Shown in pieces: positions 30,183 to 38,676 of a stretch of DNA of 40,402 bases. The notes below the pieces were generated by a model. The model did not search any database and was not told the DNA's origin. It saw only the letters and a program-made list of their open reading frames with translations. The DNA comes from Candidatus Scalindua sp. (GTDB lineage Bacteria > Planctomycetota > Brocadiia > Brocadiales > Scalinduaceae): NCBI GenBank assembly GCA_030748215.1, contig JASMMK010000027.1, positions 1 through 40,402 of the forward strand. Reading direction: 5' to 3'. The translations under genes were made by a program, and so were the position numbers. Each line of letters opens with the position of its first letter. The first letter of the stretch is position 1.

Positions 30183-32345
30183 TTATTGAGATGTAGCGTT
30201 TTTGATATGAGAAAGAATTTTTAACAATTCTTCATTTTGCGTAGTTAACCTGGTTATTTCTTCTATATGACCCTCTTTCAACTCCGGTGATAATATTTCA
30301 CAACCAGGCCGGTTTGCACCTTTATCTTTAACTCCATATAGTTTGTCGGCAACAGTAATTTTGGTCTCAGCGGATAGATTCGAATTGATAATACCTGCCC
30401 TTAGATTGACGTCTTCTCTACTTTCTTTCGCTACCGTTTTCTGAAATAGCCTGTCTTCTCCACTCAACCTGCCGACGACCTCACCAATATCTATCGGAAC
30501 CACATCAACAAGACAGCCTGTGATCTCTGAAACTTTTCGTTCAAACACCGGGGCGTCTTCTCCGCTGGCAATGTAAGAAACTTTTCCTTTCTGCACAACT
30601 CTTAAAGACAATATCTTGTTCTGCTTTAGGAAAGTCAGGGCATAATCGGAAAGTTCTTTGGAAGAATCCACAATATGAATCTCCTTGCCCGTGCGGCTTT
30701 TCCAAATCTCAAGTATCATCTGCTTAAATATACCATAATGAGTACACCCGAGAATAAGGAGATCAATATTTTCATCCATAAGAGGCTTTAAATTTGCATC
30801 GATAATAGATAAGTTCCTTGGGCTTATTACTTGAGATCCCATTTTGTCAAACTCACTCATATCAACCATAGTAGCAAACAGAGGTGCAGCTATGCTGAAT
30901 ATCTTGACATCTTGACGGTGCTTCCTTATTTCATCTATGTAAGCACCGCTTTCTATCGTCGCTTTTGTCGCAACAATTCCAATATTTTTCACCTTCATCC
31001 CATTAGCTTTCTCAGCTCTAAGAATCGCTTCAACAGCAGGTACAATGGGGCCAAGGATATGTATCGAAAATTCTTTTTCCAGCATAGCTCTCGCATTGGC
31101 ATCCATGGTATTGCAGAGGAGTACAACCTTAGCACCCAGGTTGTAAGCAGCTTCCACATATGTTCGGCAAAGATGATCAATTCTTTCGGGAGAGCTGCCT
31201 CCAAGACGTTTTGAAAATACACTGGCAACAACAACGTCTTCACTGGAAAGGTCTTCCAGCTTTGATAAATGCTCATGTAAAATTACGGGCGCTATCCCTG
31301 TATCCATTATCACAATCTGCCCATTAGGCCTAAAGTCCCGGAATGGGGAATGCATTACGGTAAGAAGCCGTTTTACGGCAATAATATCTTTGGCAATGGA
31401 TGGCATTACATCATATTTTCGCTCAGTCCTGGATATCAGTTGTCTGTATTGCTTACTAACTTTAGACTCTTCGGAGTTTAGTTCTTCCATTGCTATTTTC
31501 CCTCGCCTCGTAGCCCTCCACTCCTTCAACCACATAATTGCGACATCATGATAAGGTGTCTCATGTATCATAGTTGCATTTTTCCTGCCCTGGATCTGTT
31601 GTTGCATATCCACCTGTTCATGAACTTTGCCTAACGTATCAATCAACTCTTTATCCTTAGGTGCCAGCAGTTGCTTTAACCGCAGTACATTTAGAGCCTC
31701 ATCCTCTATCCAGTTTACTATTTGCTCATCAGTAGTCTCATTATCCGGCTCCGGCCAGAAACCATCCGGACCCATAATACGATATTTAACAAGCCGGCTT
31801 CCTACCTCCCTTGCAAGTCTTATTGTCTCACTCTTTGTCAAGTTAATAGGCACTGCCTTTATTTCTCCCCTTATATCCTCAATCTCCAATAACATTATGG
31901 CGCTACTAGCACCTCCCAGTTTTACATTATGAAGGGCGTGAAACAAGCTCTTCTCCACGGCAGATGATTCAACTTCTTCAAGAACAATATTCTCTACGAT
32001 GTCTTTTATTTCTACCAACGAAACTTTCTTAATTTCTTCCGGAAGATCGACATGCGTAATAAACTTAAGCTCGCCCTGCCCGGGACCAAATGCCAGATTA
32101 TGTTGAACCAGAAACAGCTTAACTGTTTTTGTGGAACCATCGTCCATTTTCAGGTTAATCGTATCAATAAACTTTTGCCTGAGCCCTTCCAGCCGCTTAA
32201 ACAGATGGCAATGCTTATCGAAAAAGTCTACATCTTTATCCTGAATAATGAGCTTGACTTTATCTATCCGGCTATGTATTTTTCCTAAAGTAGATAGCTC
32301 TGGAAAATTCTCAATAGATTGCTGCTTTGTATGATCTATAGACAT
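30183..32345 (-). CDS. Fusion: degenerate glutamate-dehydrogenase N-domain + glutamate-racemase domain
   Basis: The ATG at 32345 has a GAGGTAGGA ribosome site and gives 720 residues. Residues about 15-220 align with the dimerisation/substrate domain of Glu/Leu dehydrogenases: MDDGSTKTVKLFLVQHNLAF, GPGQGELKF, and MGPDGFWPEPDNETTDEQIV matching the usual IGPD..PAPDV.T. The dehydrogenase lysines are lost (Q90 and S147 at their places) and no Rossmann domain follows. After a linker, residues 343-620 form an Asp/Glu racemase with MDTGIAP, SPERIDHL, C411 (VVLLCNT) and C534 (LGCTHYG), the two catalytic cysteines. A helical tail of about 100 residues ends it. The racemase part may be active; the N-part may sense an amino acid. 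Confidence 0.82.
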   Translation of the reverse strand: MSIDHTKQQSIENFPELSTLGKIHSRIDKVKLIIQDKDVDFFDKHCHLFKRLEGLRQKFIDTINLKMDDGSTKTVKLFLVQHNLAFGPGQGELKFITHVDLPEEIKKVSLVEIKDIVENIVLEEVESSAVEKSLFHALHNVKLGGASSAIMLLEIEDIRGEIKAVPINLTKSETIRLAREVGSRLVKYRIMGPDGFWPEPDNETTDEQIVNWIEDEALNVLRLKQLLAPKDKELIDTLGKVHEQVDMQQQIQGRKNATMIHETPYHDVAIMWLKEWRATRRGKIAMEELNSEESKVSKQYRQLISRTERKYDVMPSIAKDIIAVKRLLTVMHSPFRDFRPNGQIVIMDTGIAPVILHEHLSKLEDLSSEDVVVASVFSKRLGGSSPERIDHLCRTYVEAAYNLGAKVVLLCNTMDANARAMLEKEFSIHILGPIVPAVEAILRAEKANGMKVKNIGIVATKATIESGAYIDEIRKHRQDVKIFSIAAPLFATMVDMSEFDKMGSQVISPRNLSIIDANLKPLMDENIDLLILGCTHYGIFKQMILEIWKSRTGKEIHIVDSSKELSDYALTFLKQNKILSLRVVQKGKVSYIASGEDAPVFERKVSEITGCLVDVVPIDIGEVVGRLSGEDRLFQKTVAKESREDVNLRAGIINSNLSAETKITVADKLYGVKDKGANRPGCEILSPELKEGHIEEITRLTTQNEELLKILSHIKNATSQ

Positions 32346-32501
32346 TCCTACCTCTGTCCAAACAAACGACAACCTGGAATTCTGTAAGTTTCGTTTTTAT
32401 TTCGTACGTTTCTAAAATTAATTATAAGTTTATTAATGTAATATAAATAGATCAAAATTTCTATAACATATTGTTGAAGCAATGATTTCTCAAAGCGACA
32501 A

Positions 32502-33365
32502 ATGTCTATTACGTTTAAACAATTAAAAACGCTGGAAGATTTAATCCCTTGCGAGGATCTACAGGAAGCAGTATGGAAATTTAATAAGAACGATATAATA
32601 CCTCCAAGATTCATGCGGGTATTATGCAAACATGGCGGATTTGCAATGGGTGCCTTTGATGACGATACAATGATAGGCTTTGTTTTTGGCGTTTCGGCGA
32701 TTCATTATGGGCGGCCGTCACAACACTCACACATGCTGGCAGTGTTACCTGAATATCGCAACCACAACGTTGGATATAAATTAAAAACCGCCCAGCGAGA
32801 AGAGGCCCTGAACCGCAACATAGACCTCATAACATGGGCATTCGATCCGCTACAATCCAAGAATGCTCACCTGAATATAAACAAGCTGGGAGTCATTGCC
32901 TGTAGTTACGATGTAAATCTTTATGGAGAAGCCTCTTCAAGTAAATTACACAGTGGATTGGGTACAGACAGACTTCTTGCGGAATGGTGGCTTGCAAGTG
33001 ACAAAGTCAAAACTATTATTGACGGACATACTAATGATGCGGTGAAGCAGCCACCTCCAAAAGGATTGAGCATAAATGAAACCAGGCACGACAAAAAGGG
33101 ATTTCTCATTCCTGTTGACCCGGATTTATCACTGACAGATGACGTGTTGCTACTGGAGATACCGGCTGATATCGATGAAATGAAAATTGCCAATATTGAA
33201 ACTGCACTCAAGTGGCGTGATCTTGTCCAGAAAGCGTTCCTCCACTATTTTGATGCCGGATATTATGTGAATTCTTTGCAAGTAGAACGAGATGGTGATA
33301 CCCGACGAGTCTGCTATGTGTTGGAACGTCTGACAACGCCATACAAATCTATGACTTATGATTGA
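32502..33365 (+). CDS. COG3375-type GNAT N-acyltransferase
   Basis: The 287-residue protein has a GNAT core (MLAVLPEYRNHNVGYKLKTA, the acyl-CoA pyrophosphate loop). It also has the COG3375 signature ITWAFDPLQSKNAHLNINKLG followed by GLGTDRLLAEWWL. Members are found next to OSBS/NSAR enolases, where a GNAT enzyme succinylates D-amino acids for racemisation. An NSAR-like gene lies 4.2 kb downstream on the same strand. It is divergent from the racemase fusion with a 156-base gap. An alternative, AblB-type beta-lysine acetyltransferase beside the KamA-like gene, fits the sequence less well. Confidence 0.8.
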   Translation: MSITFKQLKTLEDLIPCEDLQEAVWKFNKNDIIPPRFMRVLCKHGGFAMGAFDDDTMIGFVFGVSAIHYGRPSQHSHMLAVLPEYRNHNVGYKLKTAQREEALNRNIDLITWAFDPLQSKNAHLNINKLGVIACSYDVNLYGEASSSKLHSGLGTDRLLAEWWLASDKVKTIIDGHTNDAVKQPPPKGLSINETRHDKKGFLIPVDPDLSLTDDVLLLEIPADIDEMKIANIETALKWRDLVQKAFLHYFDAGYYVNSLQVERDGDTRRVCYVLERLTTPYKSMTYD

Positions 33366-33774
33366 AAGAGCTTTTCAAATGATTTAAATCATGAAGAAGC
33401 TATGTACTTTATTAATAGTAGATTATAACATTAAAAGATATTATTTCTTACAAAACGTTAAGTATATATAAAGACTGAACATATAGAAACGGCATGTATT
33501 TTGAGGCAGGAAAAAGTCAATTTTCATGAGACATATGGGGGATATTTTGGTAGAATGCGACCTCAAATTAATTGAAAGAGGGTAAATAGGATAGAGAGTA
33601 GATAAAGCAAGAAGAGACTTGATATTTAATTGATCCCCTTAAATCTATTGGTTTTTTTGAAATCAAAAATTCCTTTAGATTTTTTTTCATTTATGGGCAT
33701 CTTCGTTTTTTATGTCATTTTATGCTTCAGAAGCTAGCAAGATTATTTTAACAAGAAAGATTTAAGAGAGACAA
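33366..33774. other. 409-base intergenic region
   Basis: No gene is seen. Just after the acyltransferase stop lies a 14-base palindrome, ATGATTTAAATCAT (33379-33392). Further on AAATCTA (33641-33647) can pair with TAGATTT (33676-33682), followed by a T-run to 33687, a weak AT-rich terminator candidate. The final 90 bases should contain the promoter of the KamA-like gene but no clear hexamers stand out; its ribosome site is AGAGAG. Confidence 0.45.
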
Positions 33775-34902
33775 ATGTACAAATTCAGAAAAGAACTCTG
33801 GCAAGAAGAAGGACAATGGCAGGAACAGATTAAAGATCAGGTAGATACACTAGAAAAGTTAAAACAATATATAAATATTACCCCTGACGAAGAAGAAGCT
33901 ATAAAAACGTTAAAAATGAGATGGGGAACAACGCCATACTATGCAGCACTTATGGATAGAGACAACCCTGATTGTCCTATCAGAAAAATGATTATCCCTT
34001 CGATGAAAGAAAGTGAAAATACATATGGAATACCAAATTACTTAGTGATTAAAGAAAATAGAGAGAAAACTGACAGGTTTGGAGAAGGCGAAAAAAGACC
34101 TGATAGTGTTGCAAGGCAGTATATTGACAGAGTCGCATTTACCATTACAGATGTATGTCCAAGCTATTGCAGGTATTGCTTCAGGAGAGAAGCTGTAATT
34201 GACAAGGATCTGCGCTTACGATTCGATGTTGATGAAGGATTAGAGTGGATTCGAAATCACGAAGAGATCCGTGATGTATTACTGACTGGAGGAGATCCAT
34301 TTATGTTGTCAGATGAGAACATAAAGTATCTAATTGAAAGTCTTCGAAGTATTCCACATCTTGAAATGATCCGGATACACACAAAGATGCCAATTACCTG
34401 CCCACATCGAATAACAGAAGGTCTTCTTGATATATTAGGGCAAGAACATGACATTCCAATCTGGATTAATGTCCATATTAATCACCCAAAAGAGATTACC
34501 GGTAAAATCAAGAAAGTGATCTGGGACCTACTCCATACCGGTATCAACGTCGGAAACCAAGGCGTAGTGCTGAAGGGCATAAATGATGATGTCGAAACAT
34601 TCCAAAAACTTCACCAGAAACTTTTATCTGTTCGAATAAGACCGTATTACATGTTCCACTGTCAACTGGCACCCGGAGTAGACCATTTCCGAGCCCCTGT
34701 GGAAAAAGGTGCGGAGTTGATCAGAGACGGAATTCGCGGTCACACAACCGGATTAGCACAGCCGATGTATGCTGTCTCTACGAAAGTTGGAAAGATACCA
34801 TTAATGCCTGATTACTATATACAGAGTAATGGTGGAGAACATTACAAACTACAGAGTTACAAGGGTGAGACACTTTACATCCCTTATATCCCTGAGGACT
34901 AA
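33775..34902 (+). CDS. KamA-family radical SAM aminomutase, substrate uncertain
   Basis: The 375-residue protein has the CPSYCRYCFRRE cluster motif (C128, C132, C135) for the 4Fe-4S/SAM centre and the KamA blocks TGGDPFMLSD, NVHINHPKEIT and GNQGVVLKGINDD. The PLP lysine is kept in VGKIPLMPDYY. The usual APGGGGK loop reads STKVGK, and the two aspartates that hold the lysine side chain in lysine 2,3-aminomutase (D293, D330) are replaced by Q (CQLAPG) and S/T. Lysine is therefore an unlikely substrate. Glutamate 2,3-aminomutase also changes these two sites, to K and N. The product would be a beta-amino acid. Confidence 0.82.
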   Translation: MYKFRKELWQEEGQWQEQIKDQVDTLEKLKQYINITPDEEEAIKTLKMRWGTTPYYAALMDRDNPDCPIRKMIIPSMKESENTYGIPNYLVIKENREKTDRFGEGEKRPDSVARQYIDRVAFTITDVCPSYCRYCFRREAVIDKDLRLRFDVDEGLEWIRNHEEIRDVLLTGGDPFMLSDENIKYLIESLRSIPHLEMIRIHTKMPITCPHRITEGLLDILGQEHDIPIWINVHINHPKEITGKIKKVIWDLLHTGINVGNQGVVLKGINDDVETFQKLHQKLLSVRIRPYYMFHCQLAPGVDHFRAPVEKGAELIRDGIRGHTTGLAQPMYAVSTKVGKIPLMPDYYIQSNGGEHYKLQSYKGETLYIPYIPED

Positions 34903-34969
34903 ACCACCCTTCCGTAATTTCCATTACCATATTTGTACACCTCGTATACACAATTACCACGAAAAGCAA

Positions 34970-35689
34970 TCAATGCTGATTCTCTGATGGTATGTAATAG
35001 GACAACTGCCCATCTCGGTAGATAATAACTCTATCCGGATTTTTATTATACAGCTGTTTTACCAGGTTATGGGGAAAAAAGACGGTATCCACCTCTACAA
35101 CATCTTCCGCGAAGCGATGCAGAAATCTGGCAACTGATAATCCGCATGTCAAGCCTATTGCTTTGGTAGTAAACTGCCCTTTGGGATGTGAACGCTTGGT
35201 ACCATAGTGAAGAATAGTATATAGTTCTTCCGCCTCACTATCTGTAAGATTAAACTCAAAAATCTCAACAGCATGTGTATTAATAGTTTCTCGCCAGTCT
35301 ATATATTGATTAAGGGTTGGAACCTTCTCGCTCATCACATCATCCGTACGCTTTGAATCCATATAGCGCTTGGTTGCAAACTCCCTGTGATGGCGTGCCG
35401 CCGGACCCAAATAACGGATTTGAGTGGCAAACGCGCCTGCCGGGTCCCAGAAAAGAGGACCTTTGGTCCGGCAGTACAATCGCAAAGCAGTATGCTTACA
35501 AGACGTTGTATGGTACATAACCATTACATGGAGTTTTGACTGTTCCGGTTTATCATCAAGACTTTTTGGATTACAATCATTGGCATTCCAGCTCACAGGC
35601 AACATGGGAGGATATGAATTATGAAAACAACAACCGGCACTAATACCGATTCCGGAAAGAAACAAAACAATTAAGTTTTTTTTTATCAC
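34970..35689 (-). CDS. Lipoprotein, possible permuted NlpC/P60 (papain-like) enzyme, paralogue 1
   Basis: The 239-residue protein starts at a GTG and has a lipoprotein signal ending ISAGC (C20). A conserved histidine segment (CKHTALRLYC, H66, then FWDPAG) precedes a conserved cysteine at the start of a helix (TCGLSVARFLHRF, C182). Histidine before cysteine is the order in circularly permuted NlpC/P60 enzymes, so I infer such a fold; this is not proven. It would act at the envelope, perhaps on peptide or lipid amide bonds. A tract of nine adenines covers codons 2-5. A close paralogue lies at 36623-37346. Confidence 0.65.
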   Translation of the reverse strand: MIKKNLIVLFLSGIGISAGCCFHNSYPPMLPVSWNANDCNPKSLDDKPEQSKLHVMVMYHTTSCKHTALRLYCRTKGPLFWDPAGAFATQIRYLGPAARHHREFATKRYMDSKRTDDVMSEKVPTLNQYIDWRETINTHAVEIFEFNLTDSEAEELYTILHYGTKRSHPKGQFTTKAIGLTCGLSVARFLHRFAEDVVEVDTVFFPHNLVKQLYNKNPDRVIIYRDGQLSYYIPSENQH

Positions 35690-35820
35690 AACGTTAAACT
35701 TTCTGTCTAAACGCTCCCATCCTCACAGGTTCCAAAAGATATAAAAGCGTATGTACATGATATGACTATTTCGATATGTGAGAAAAAGGATATTTTAAGA
35801 TAAATAAGCAAAAGTCACCA

Positions 35821-36468
35821 TTAGTTACCGTGGAATGTTGTTATATCAACAGTTTTCATCTCAATATCCGGAGGAATTGTAAACTTTTCCTCAGGAATAG
35901 AAACGTGTTCATCTATCTCTGTCGCAACCGTGGTCGTCTTTGAAAACCCATGATCAGATATTTTTTTCAGAACAATCCCATTCCAGGTACAGGTTTTGAT
36001 ACCGGTATTTTGCTTCTCCCAGACTACACATGGTTTACCAATAACCCTTTCGATCTCTACTTTCATTCCACCTGCGTCTATATTCTTATCTTCTTCATTT
36101 TTTTCTCTTTCTCTTCTAGATAGCCCAATAGACTCTTTATACCTGGGGTTCCTCATCCTTATTCCTGTTCTTGCGTTAAGATCAACGTTGTTTATCCATT
36201 GACCATTCTCCTCAAGAAGAACTAAGGTATTTCTTGTCACCGACAACCCTCCTAACTCCATGGTTGTTGTTATATATTTTGCCTCCCGGCTTCCCCAATC
36301 GTCATAGTAAAGAATTTCAGTCCCTGCTATGGTAGCACCGTAAACTTCGTATTTAACAATTCCGGTTTTTGACTTTGGATAACGGTTTGGAGTATTTGCA
36401 GCAAAACTGGCATTTACGCAAGTAACAACTAACACTAAAAAGAGAACGCAGGAATTCAGTTTCTTCAT
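35821..36468 (-). CDS. Exported protein, DUF4412-like, function unknown
   Basis: The 215-residue protein has a standard signal peptide with likely cleavage after SFAA (about residue 24). A beta-rich body follows, with KTGIVKYEVYGATIAGTEIL, YYDDWGSREAKY and GQWINNVDLNARTG. The pattern of strand, DDWG and W..N.DL resembles DUF4412-type periplasmic proteins, by memory. Two cysteines are present in the mature part (KPCVVW, KTCTW). It lies between the two paralogous lipoproteins on the same strand, so the three may be used together in the envelope. Confidence 0.6.
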   Translation of the reverse strand: MKKLNSCVLFLVLVVTCVNASFAANTPNRYPKSKTGIVKYEVYGATIAGTEILYYDDWGSREAKYITTTMELGGLSVTRNTLVLLEENGQWINNVDLNARTGIRMRNPRYKESIGLSRREREKNEEDKNIDAGGMKVEIERVIGKPCVVWEKQNTGIKTCTWNGIVLKKISDHGFSKTTTVATEIDEHVSIPEEKFTIPPDIEMKTVDITTFHGN

Positions 36469-36622
36469 ACAATTACACCTATTAATTTATTCGTAATCTA
36501 TTTTACAGGTATAAAAAACATAGCAGTTTCTTCTTAAGATTTCCAGTCTCAAATTTAGCTAATCTTCAACACTATCTACGTATTAAGCAAAAAAGGAATT
36601 TTCTGTCTCTTTCTTATTAGAG

Positions 36623-37346
36623 TTACTCAACATGATTTTCTGAAGGAATATAAAAACTCAAATGCCCATCTCTATAAATAATTACTCTATCCGGATTTTC
36701 TTTATAAAGTTGTTTTGCCAGGTTGTGAGGATGCCAGACTGTATCCACTTTAACAATATCCTCACCAAAACGATGAAGAAATTTAGCAACCGAGAACCCA
36801 CACAGCCCTCCCATTGCATTTGTACTAAATCTACCTTTCGGATGCGGACGCTTGGTACCGTATCTAAGAATAGTCCAGATCTCTTCAGCCTGCTTATCTG
36901 GAATATTGAACTCAAAGATCTCAACAGCATCTGTATCAATACGTTTTCTCCAATCCAGATATTGGTTAAGACCAGGAACTTTTTCGGCAAGCACATCATT
37001 CTCACGTACATACCCATCCTTGACAGGTGCATCATAACGCCTATGCCGCCGCACCTGTCCCGCATAATGGTGTTTAGCAGCAAAACTGCCTGCCGGATCC
37101 CAAAAAACCGGACCCTTCGCTTGACAATACACCCGCAAGGTAGTATGCACACAAGACGTTCCACGATACATAACCATTACGTGGAGTTTTGACTGTCCTG
37201 GATTGGCCTCCAGGATTGTTGTGTTACATTCTCTACCATACCAGGCTTTAGGTAACATAGGAGGATTTGGTTGGTAGTAACAACAGCCTGCTTGAAAACC
37301 AATTCCTAATACAAGCAAAGCAAATATAATATTTTTTTTTAAGCAT
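36623..37346 (-). CDS. Lipoprotein paralogue 2, frame interrupted at an A9 tract
   Basis: The body (to 37318) is a clear relative of 34970-35689, sharing SKLHVMVMY, FWDPAG, the CGFSVAKFLHRF cysteine helix and DRVIIYRDG. The true start is probably ATG 37346, which has an AGAGGA ribosome site. From there nine adenines throw the frame out by one. With eight, the gene would open MLKKNIIFALLVLGIGFQAG followed by C, a normal lipoprotein signal like that of its paralogue. The tract may be phase-variable, corrected by slippage, or miscounted in the assembly. Fold and function are as uncertain as in paralogue 1. Confidence 0.62.
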
Positions 37347-37566
37347 CAAATAAGTCCTCTTAATATCCCTCTTGTAAATGATACACTCTACTATTTGAAG
37401 GAAAAATATCTAGAAAAAAATATACTTAGATGATTAGATGTATCTGGCTTTATTAAGTATTCATTAAGAACACAAAATCCTTCCTTATTTCAATCGGGGT
37501 TGATATACTTGCGCCAATGCGACAATGTGATTTGTCTTGAAATTACAATTCTTACAGGAGAATAAT

Positions 37567-38676
37567 ATTAAGATTGAACGGCTTGAAATACGGGAAATTA
37601 ATCTGCCGCTTGTTCATTATTTTGAAACCAGCTTCGGAAAAACTGAAAAACGCCGCATACTCTTAACAAAGATTTTCTGTAACGGTGCCGTGGGTTATGG
37701 CGAATGCACAACCGGAGAAAAACCATTTTTCTCTCACGAGACTATTGATACTGCCTGGATTATCATAAAAGATGTGTTGTCACCAATCGTAATTGGAAAA
37801 GAGTGGACAGCACCATCGGAGGTCGGTCAATGGTTCAAGCAGATACGAGGTCATCAGATGGCACGCGCGGCAGTAGAGAACGCCTGTTGGGACATGACTG
37901 CCAGAATCGACAACATGGCCCTTCACGAATTACTGGGCGGAACACGCAACGACATTCCCTGTGGCGTATCTATCGGCATTCAGTATACCCCTGAACAATT
38001 GTTGGAAAAAATCAGAATTGAAGTCGAAGCCGGTTACCGACGAATAAAGATTAAAATCAAGCCTGGCTGGGATTATGACATTCTTAAACTTGTCCGTCAA
38101 ACTTTTCCTGATATCACTCTCTCTGTAGATGCTAACTCTGCTTATACACTCGCAGACATCAACCTGCTAAAAAGCTTAGACGAATTCAACCTCCTGATGA
38201 TCGAGCAACCACTAAGCCATGATGATATTGTTGACCACTCACATTTACAAAAACAGATTAACACTGACATCTGCCTCGATGAATCGATTACGTCTCTCGA
38301 TAAAACCCGCAAAGCTATTGAAATGAAAAGCGGCAGGATAATTAACTTAAAGCTGGGACGCGTGGGAGGCTTCAGTGAGGCTATTAAGATCCATAACTAC
38401 TGCGACGAACACAACATTCCGGTTTGGTGCGGAGGAATGCTGGAGGCCGGTATTGGACGTTCCCATAACATAGCAATGGCAACACTCCCGGGTTTCATCC
38501 TGCCCGGTGATGTATCCGCAAGCAAGAGATACTTTGAAGATGACATCATTGATCCACCAGTAACCGTCAACAAAGATGGATTTATCGAAATTTCTCAAAT
38601 GCCAGGCACAGGATATGAACCAAGGGAAGAATATATCGAAATAATTACCGTAAGGAAAGAAACGCTTCCTGCGTAG
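37567..38676 (+). CDS. o-Succinylbenzoate synthase / N-succinylamino-acid racemase (enolase superfamily), AUU start
   Basis: Catalytic residues of the OSBS/NSAR subgroup are present: K163 in KIKIKPGWD, metal ligands D188 (VDANSAY), E213 (MIEQPL) and D238 (LDES), and K262 (LKLGRVGG), followed by GGMLEAGIGRSHN. These numbers match Amycolatopsis NSAR/OSBS within one if translation starts at ATT 37567, six bases after a CAGGAG site. The in-frame TTG at 37537 would add ten atypical residues over that ribosome site. The enzyme either makes o-succinylbenzoate for menaquinone or racemises N-succinyl amino acids. The COG3375 gene upstream favours the racemase role. Confidence 0.85.
   Translation: MKIERLEIREINLPLVHYFETSFGKTEKRRILLTKIFCNGAVGYGECTTGEKPFFSHETIDTAWIIIKDVLSPIVIGKEWTAPSEVGQWFKQIRGHQMARAAVENACWDMTARIDNMALHELLGGTRNDIPCGVSIGIQYTPEQLLEKIRIEVEAGYRRIKIKIKPGWDYDILKLVRQTFPDITLSVDANSAYTLADINLLKSLDEFNLLMIEQPLSHDDIVDHSHLQKQINTDICLDESITSLDKTRKAIEMKSGRIINLKLGRVGGFSEAIKIHNYCDEHNIPVWCGGMLEAGIGRSHNIAMATLPGFILPGDVSASKRYFEDDIIDPPVTVNKDGFIEISQMPGTGYEPREEYIEIITVRKETLPA

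Follow-up and report, generated by a model that had tools for sequence, protein, structure and literature searches.

A fusion of a glutamate dehydrogenase-derived N-domain with a MurI-type racemase in Candidatus Scalindua and its three-domain relatives in Kuenenia-type anammox bacteria

The stretch of DNA analysed (the window) comprises positions 1-40,402 of contig JASMMK010000027.1 from Candidatus Scalindua sp. (assembly GCA_030748215.1). It holds an open reading frame (ORF) of 720 amino acids (aa) in which a domain derived from glutamate dehydrogenase (GDH) is fused to a racemase domain of the MurI fold. The gene lies at 30183-32345 on the reverse strand (-), with its ATG at 32343-32345 and a TAA stop codon at 30183-30185, and AGAGGTAGGA (32346-32355, -), a purine-rich sequence directly 5' of the ATG, is the probable ribosome-binding site. 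All positions within the gene given below are likewise on the (-) strand. The protein was divided into the GDH-derived N-domain (residues 15-220; 31686-32303), a segment immediately N-terminal to the racemase (residues 310-331; 31353-31418), the racemase domain (residues 341-590; 30576-31325) and a C-terminal part (residues 591-720; 30186-30575) that is conserved across the Scalindua family, as judged from the alignment and from substitution rates.

The initial annotation, made from the sequence alone, had proposed a dehydrogenase N-domain at residues 15-220, a missing Rossmann domain and a racemase domain, and profile searches upheld all three. With Pfam, PF02812 (Glu/Leu/Phe/Val dehydrogenase N-domain) matched residues 62-216 (E 2.6e-8, 34.1 bits against a gathering cut-off of 25.3) and PF01177 (Asp/Glu racemase) matched residues 395-544 (E 4e-8, 33.7 bits against a gathering cut-off of 31); at E <= 1 the window protein was not matched by PF00208, the Rossmann NAD(P)-binding domain. 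With NCBIfam, TIGR00067 matched residues 395-582 (E 6.7e-27), its 94.5 bits falling short of the equivalog cut-off of 146.65. A phmmer search of the Protein Data Bank (PDB) with the window protein returned glutamate racemases at the top (best E 1.4e-16), followed by GDHs (best E 3e-4). A profile built from 12 fusion N-domains matched 44 distinct PDB sequences at E <= 0.01 (best 1.4e-12), every one of them named as a GDH. The structure of the window protein was predicted with AlphaFold2 from a 32-row alignment (mean predicted local distance difference test score, pLDDT, 75.4; residues about 191-276 poorly defined) and compared with the PDB. Among the best 50 matches, ranks 1-48 were glutamate racemases, with template modelling (TM) scores to the target of up to 0.91 (for 2gzm, TM 0.90 and E 5.6e-17), and GDH-family chains appeared only at ranks 49-50 (TM 0.46 and 0.27).

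The fusion was then surveyed in 62 genomes of the order. Whole, partial or split copies were found in 14/17 genomes of the window's family (f1), the exceptions being G046, G049 and G051, and a three-domain version was found in 6/33 genomes of a second family (f4; G022, G030, G031, G032, G038 and G043), hereafter the Kuenenia-type form; the other 12 genomes of the order had none. Since no internal stop interrupts the fusion in 13 of the 14 f1 carriers (two of these, G050 and G058, being fragments at contig ends), a local assembly artefact is excluded and the fusion of the GDH N-domain with the racemase is real. In the remaining carrier, G055 (L048:13111-15265), two ORFs take the place of the fusion, with the break lying between the N-domain and the racemase, owing either to a sequencing error or to a true split. 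A contig scan with racemase motifs recovered 13 f1 loci (eight from Candidatus Scalindua) and four f4 fusion loci (one from Candidatus Kuenenia hertensis); as only two motifs were used, distant fusions elsewhere could be missed by it. When 392 genomes of the phylum were searched with the N-domain profile at E <= 1e-6, nine fusion genomes scored 298-374 bits and ten others at most 33 bits. A scan of viral contigs with the window protein gave no relative, and a plasmid search with the N-domain gave 10 records; seven of the eight listed carry an annotation, which is Glu/Leu/Phe/Val dehydrogenase each time. Of five further long racemase frames read in the phylum, four are MurI-type ORFs (L141-L144, 270-526 aa) and one looks like tandem racemase domains (L145, 570 aa); no GDH part was seen in them by eye, without a domain search. 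The initial annotation knew of no described fusion of the two families, and searches of the open-licence PubMed Central literature brought up no account of one, as judged by the titles and abstract openings of the papers listed.

The lysines needed for dehydrogenation had been described as replaced, with Q90 and S147 given as the substitutes; both residues were verified at those positions and F135 adds a third. Q90 (32076-32078) and F135 (31941-31943) stand at the first and second substrate-lysine positions of GDH, the latter corresponding to what we take to be K113 of Clostridium GDH, and lysine occupies both positions in 6/6 Kuenenia-type fusions and 14/14 GDHs. Among the 14 f1 sequences, the lysine at the F135 position has been lost throughout (F/Y/H/R/N) and the Q90 position is variable (Q in nine, K in four and H in one). 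S147 (31905-31907), which follows GGA at the catalytic-lysine position, begins a 12-residue insertion that the Kuenenia-type fusions have in common. The catalytic lysine of the GG[AG]KGG motif is absent from 13/13 aligned fusions (S/C or M/I instead) and present in 14/14 GDHs. What the protein shares with an ordinary Glu/Leu/Phe/Val dehydrogenase (PF02812 plus PF00208) is an N-domain over the Pfam cut-off and the HN..GP.xG and PD motifs. In the alignment of 17 of the 20 fusions (the partial or split L043, L047 and L048 were left out), H82-N83, G87-P88, the GG preceding S147 and P200 are invariant, and D201 (31743-31745), the retained counterpart of the GDH active-site aspartate (PAPD), is kept in all but L038, which has N.

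These conserved remnants of the old active site favour the idea, akin to one put forward in the initial annotation, that the N-domain is a true sensor of glutamate or 2-oxoglutarate, binding its ligand and switching the racemase; the Kuenenia-type rows also speak for it, with two of the three lysines retained in 6/6 and a GFGxxG motif in 5/6. In the window protein, however, the Rossmann half of the cleft, the domain that forms the other wall of the GDH active site, is absent, and the 14 f1 sequences lack the catalytic lysine and one carboxylate lysine, the other being Q, K or H. A ligand sensor is the bolder hypothesis; it appears more plausible for the Kuenenia-type form, and for the fusion at large we consider it unlikely. 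The GDH N-domain is also the oligomerisation domain (PF02812 is named a dimerisation domain in Pfam), and for this reason a scaffold role would be at least as likely as amino-acid sensing and is the minimal hypothesis. The initial interpretation as a whole is partly supported, a glutamate sensor being possible but unproven.

The Kuenenia-type proteins are encoded at six loci (L031-L036) and are 916-926 aa long, with the dehydrogenase N-domain, the Rossmann domain and the racemase in this order. Pfam, run on two of the six, identified PF02812, PF00208 and PF01177 (E 5.6e-8, 6.9e-35 and 1.4e-8 for L031), and PF00208 and TIGR00067 were both matched in all six. The order of the modules is the same as in the Scalindua form, the N-domains cluster together and their insertions are common to both; the Kuenenia-type protein differs in retaining the Rossmann domain and two lysines and in having an insertion of roughly 37 residues in its racemase. 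In an N-domain tree of seven of the 14 f1 sequences, the six f4 sequences and 14 GDHs chosen from search matches, the fusions stood on one side and the ordinary GDHs on the other with support 100/98. Between fixed anchors, the 13 fusions have 11, 23 and 29 or 38 residues where the 14 GDHs have 3, 11 and 8, respectively; these three insertions were found in 0/14 GDHs, from which the window protein differs also in the absence of the Rossmann domain and of the catalytic lysine. A fourth difference in anchor spacing amounts to two residues and is not confined to the fusions.

The segment at residues 310-331 resembles the helix that ends the GDH part in the Kuenenia-type protein. In a simple ungapped profile comparison, run after the likeness had been spotted by eye, the f1 segment scored 42.6 against that helix, compared with a mean of 18.4 and a maximum of 33.0 in 300 column shuffles. 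The same comparison with ordinary GDHs gave nothing (186/300 shuffles scored equally high); the likeness is thus to the Kuenenia-type GDH part and not directly to ordinary GDHs. With hhalign, the linker matched the Kuenenia-type GDH part weakly (probability 7.3, P 0.0049) and in a region other than the last helix, and ordinary GDHs gave P 0.26. Homology of the C-terminal tails of the two forms is not claimed (hhalign probability 3.9, P 0.011), and an AlphaFold2 model of the Kuenenia-type protein was left unused, being poor overall (mean pLDDT 62.7) and of low confidence in its Rossmann domain. The simplest history suggested by these comparisons is one GDH-racemase fusion with loss of the catalytic lysine, after which the Scalindua family deleted its Rossmann domain. 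Kuenenia stuttgartiensis MBR1 is counted with two GDH genes, gdh_1 (KSMBR1_1085) and gdh_2 (KSMBR1_2236) (PMC7438415). In G032, a genome in a single contig, PF00208 matches strongly at two places, which are the fusion (1.167 Mb) and a GDH of ordinary length (2.445 Mb), and weakly at a third (3.189 Mb); to judge by this spacing, gdh_1 may be the fusion. Five of the Scalindua-family genomes searched hold one more GDH-type ORF, a very long one with frames of 845-1140 aa (G000:C13:8232-8921, with counterparts in G045, G046, G049 and G059).

Both catalytic cysteines named in the initial annotation were confirmed by motif alignment, C411 in CNT (31113-31115) and C534 in CTH (30744-30746), as was D348 (31302-31304), the active-site aspartate of the MurI DSG motif (DTG here). 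D348, C411, N412, T413, T460, T463, C534, T535 and H536 are identical in 7/7 Scalindua-family and 6/6 Kuenenia-type rows, and both cysteines are also present in every f1 sequence read that covers them; their roles are presumably those known from work on MurI. The fusion has in common with MurI glutamate racemase (PF01177, TIGR00067) the predicted fold, the CNT and CTH cysteines, the DSG aspartate and the order of the motifs, and it differs in having a 340-residue GDH-derived N-terminal part, a longer C-terminal part and, in f1, altered GDT, PYG and Glu motifs. Racemase activity is likely on these grounds, and glutamate is not certain to be the substrate of the Scalindua form. Residues 411-415 read CNTxD in every one of the 13 fusion rows, where most MurI rows have T or S in place of D; three Bacillota MurI rows (L095, L098 and L105) also have CNTxD, in a biased sample fetched by a CNT[MV]D motif.

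A standalone MurI homologue in which serine replaces both catalytic cysteines (ASNT, SSTH) is encoded in each of the six genomes that have the Kuenenia-type fusion. These genes lie at L156:9344-10150(-), L157:9261-10061(+), L158:1383-2189(-), L146:7379-8194(-), L159:2655-3461(+) and L160:9668-10318(-, partial). Five of them score above the equivalog cut-off of TIGR00067 and the partial one scores below it, and a protein of this kind would for that reason be annotated automatically as a glutamate racemase. In all three g17 genomes (g17 is a genus that includes Kuenenia hertensis, as assigned by its contig), the fusion is the sole TIGR00067 match with both cysteines, the other match having Ser at both positions. 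That dead racemases exist in the order, and that the GDH part of the fusion is dead by sequence, would be in line with a purely structural or signalling pseudoenzyme lacking either activity; the CNT and CTH cysteines are, however, conserved in the 13 fusion rows and in all f1 sequences covering them, and we hold this explanation to be very improbable.

Ratios of non-synonymous to synonymous substitution rates (dN/dS) were estimated by the NG86 method. Between the window and nine of its 13 f1 partners, dN/dS was 0.09-0.15 for the N-domain, 0.12-0.30 for the linker, 0.16-0.22 for the racemase and 0.11-0.18 for the C-terminal part; several of the dS values exceeded 1 and are rough. In four f1 pairs without the window, the corresponding ranges were 0.10-0.28, 0.19-0.49, 0.11-0.21 and 0.11-0.25. 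With every value far below 1, the two domains are each subject to purifying selection and neither is decaying; which of them is the more constrained depends on the pair.

Taken together, we favour the reading that the protein is a MurI-type racemase that works without a cofactor, is assembled or regulated by a pseudoenzyme of GDH origin and is descended from a single GDH-racemase fusion in anaerobic ammonium-oxidizing (anammox) bacteria, with a probability of about 0.5. A full GDH would have been fused once to a MurI-type racemase, in an ancestor common to some or all anammox bacteria, and the GDH catalytic lysine would have been lost before the two known forms separated. The Kuenenia-type form would then have kept the Rossmann domain, and the Scalindua form would have deleted it, retaining the N-domain along with the final helix of the GDH. 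Using Cys411 and Cys534 and no cofactor, the racemase domain would interconvert L- and D-glutamate or a close analogue. The GDH-derived module would keep the enzyme in a fixed oligomeric state and regulate it by contacts between the domains; in Kuenenia-type proteins, this module may have retained binding of a nucleotide or of 2-oxoglutarate. In Scalindua, the likely product would be D-glutamate for peptidoglycan. There is a precedent for control of a racemase from outside its active site in E. coli MurI (2jfn, rank 48 among the best 50 structure matches), which is reportedly regulated by UDP-MurNAc-Ala via its extended N-terminus; that extension is short and is not a dehydrogenase domain.

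Several points weigh against this reading. Both fusion groups sit on long branches of the N-domain tree (1.23 and 1.48), which drew the program's long-branch warning. In a tree of 46 racemase domains, including 15/40 standalone racemase loci, 10/26 canonical f4 MurI loci and 4/6 of the Cys-to-Ser homologues, the fusions formed one clade with support of only 65/54, again on long branches, and a clade of the Kuenenia-type racemases with the Cys-to-Ser homologues was not rejected (approximately unbiased test, p-AU 0.115). As long branches meet in it, this tree was set aside as evidence of origin, and it neither supports nor rejects a single event. Given this support and the long N-domain branches, the case for a single fusion event is carried by the insertions and the junction helix no less than by the trees. 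The N-domain also exceeds the racemase in dN/dS in three of the four f1 pairs without the window, and regulation or oligomer control by the GDH-derived module is put forward as a proposal. As to substrate, the Scalindua form misses the TIGR00067 equivalog cut-off, and in 7/7 f1 rows the GDT aspartate is replaced by V376, PYG by R380-L381-G382, the DSG serine by T and the active-site Glu by D; the f4 proteins (6/6 rows) retain the DSG serine, the GDT aspartate, PFG and the active-site Glu. Three of the 17 f1 genomes, two of them at least 92% complete, have MurD and no fusion, and DapF, a serious rival as the source of D-glutamate, is encoded in 16/17 f1 genomes, including all three that lack the fusion.

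The supply of D-glutamate in f1 was considered further from gene content. MurD, which adds D-glutamate, is present in 17/17 f1 genomes, and a TIGR00067 match besides the fusion was found in 1/17 (G057, on a 3-kb and possibly foreign contig). More widely, only 50/392 sampled Planctomycetota genomes have TIGR00067 matches over the glutamate racemase cut-off. D-amino-acid aminotransferase gave matches in 16/17 f1 genomes, none over the cut-off. Two of these, from two genomes, were checked: one passes the IlvE cut-off and the other only that of PabC (aminodeoxychorismate lyase), with higher scores, below their own cut-offs, for the branched-chain and D-amino-acid models. A D-aminotransferase thus appears unlikely as the source of D-glutamate in this family. 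DapF of Chlamydia is reported to racemise glutamate, and the same was proposed for other members of the superphylum (PMC5885031); a bifunctional DapF would be an alternative source in MurI-less bacteria of the same superphylum. The DapF family is unrelated to the fusion, and in f1 it is a putative source of D-glutamate. Since G046 and G049 have MurD and DapF without the fusion, the latter is not required for D-glutamate in every f1 member; where present, the Scalindua fusion may supply cell-wall D-glutamate.

The fusion is flanked in the window by genes for amino-acid enzymes, identified with Pfam and, for the last two, also NCBIfam: a divergent gene for a GNAT acetyltransferase (32502-33365, +), a KamA-type radical SAM aminomutase family protein (33775-34902, +) and a MenC/N-acylamino-acid racemase-like protein of the enolase superfamily (37537-38676, +). 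Homologues lie near the fusion in 10, 5 and 7, respectively, of the 13 other f1 loci, some of which are cut by contig ends. In five f1 loci a divergent gene of 333-336 aa adjoins the fusion, and the three of these that were searched are 2,4-diaminopentanoate-dehydrogenase-like; no such gene was seen in the window. The recurring f1 set (window 32502-38676; L042, L044, L045 and L047) thus comprises GNAT, KamA-type, MenC/N-acylamino-acid racemase-like and 2,4-diaminopentanoate-dehydrogenase-like genes, and a pathway for beta-amino acids or for D-to-L conversion of amino acids is possible from this gene content.

Because the TIGR00067 cut-off is missed and the glutamate motifs are altered in f1, the racemase could act on another substrate, an amino acid handled by these neighbouring genes, with D-glutamate coming from DapF. 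The substitutions in the glutamate-binding motifs, the recurring neighbours, and the wide occurrence of DapF together with its precedent in Chlamydia (PMC5885031), favour this alternative. L049, however, has an ammonium transporter and none of the GNAT, MenC-like or KamA-like neighbours, the Kuenenia-type loci have different ones, and by both profile and fold the protein matches glutamate racemases best; we regard the alternative as doubtful, though not to be dismissed.

At the f4 loci, a GltB-like gene of 525 aa, a RidA gene and a gene for an HDO-fold (CADD/BesC-like) protein are located close to the fusion on four of the six contigs (L031:5401-8495, L032, L035, L036 and L159; domains were searched in L031 and assigned in the others by clustering). 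Within f4, the HDO gene was found only in the six fusion genomes (6/33); elsewhere it occurs in 15/17 f1, 2/2 f2 and 9/9 f3 genomes, several of them without the fusion, and as the genomes are related no probability was drawn from this pattern.

The main new result is the origin of the fusion, namely that its Kuenenia-type relatives keep, by profile matches, a complete GDH body in the same fusion. A further-reaching proposal, which we put forward as speculative and distinctly unlikely, is that a GDH was turned into a control module, a pseudoenzyme that would read the state of nitrogen assimilation (glutamate, 2-oxoglutarate or NAD(H)) and set the level of cell-wall D-glutamate, with an N-domain-only version in Scalindua. 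The three-domain form would be called a GDH from its dehydrogenase annotation alone. The fusion is also an example of an enzyme domain that would have lost first its catalysis and then its cofactor half, yet stays under purifying selection within another enzyme. For the question of how MurI-less bacteria of the Planctomycetes-Verrucomicrobiae-Chlamydiae group obtain D-glutamate, to which DapF was offered as an answer (PMC5885031), the fusion would provide a second and directly testable candidate in some anammox bacteria.

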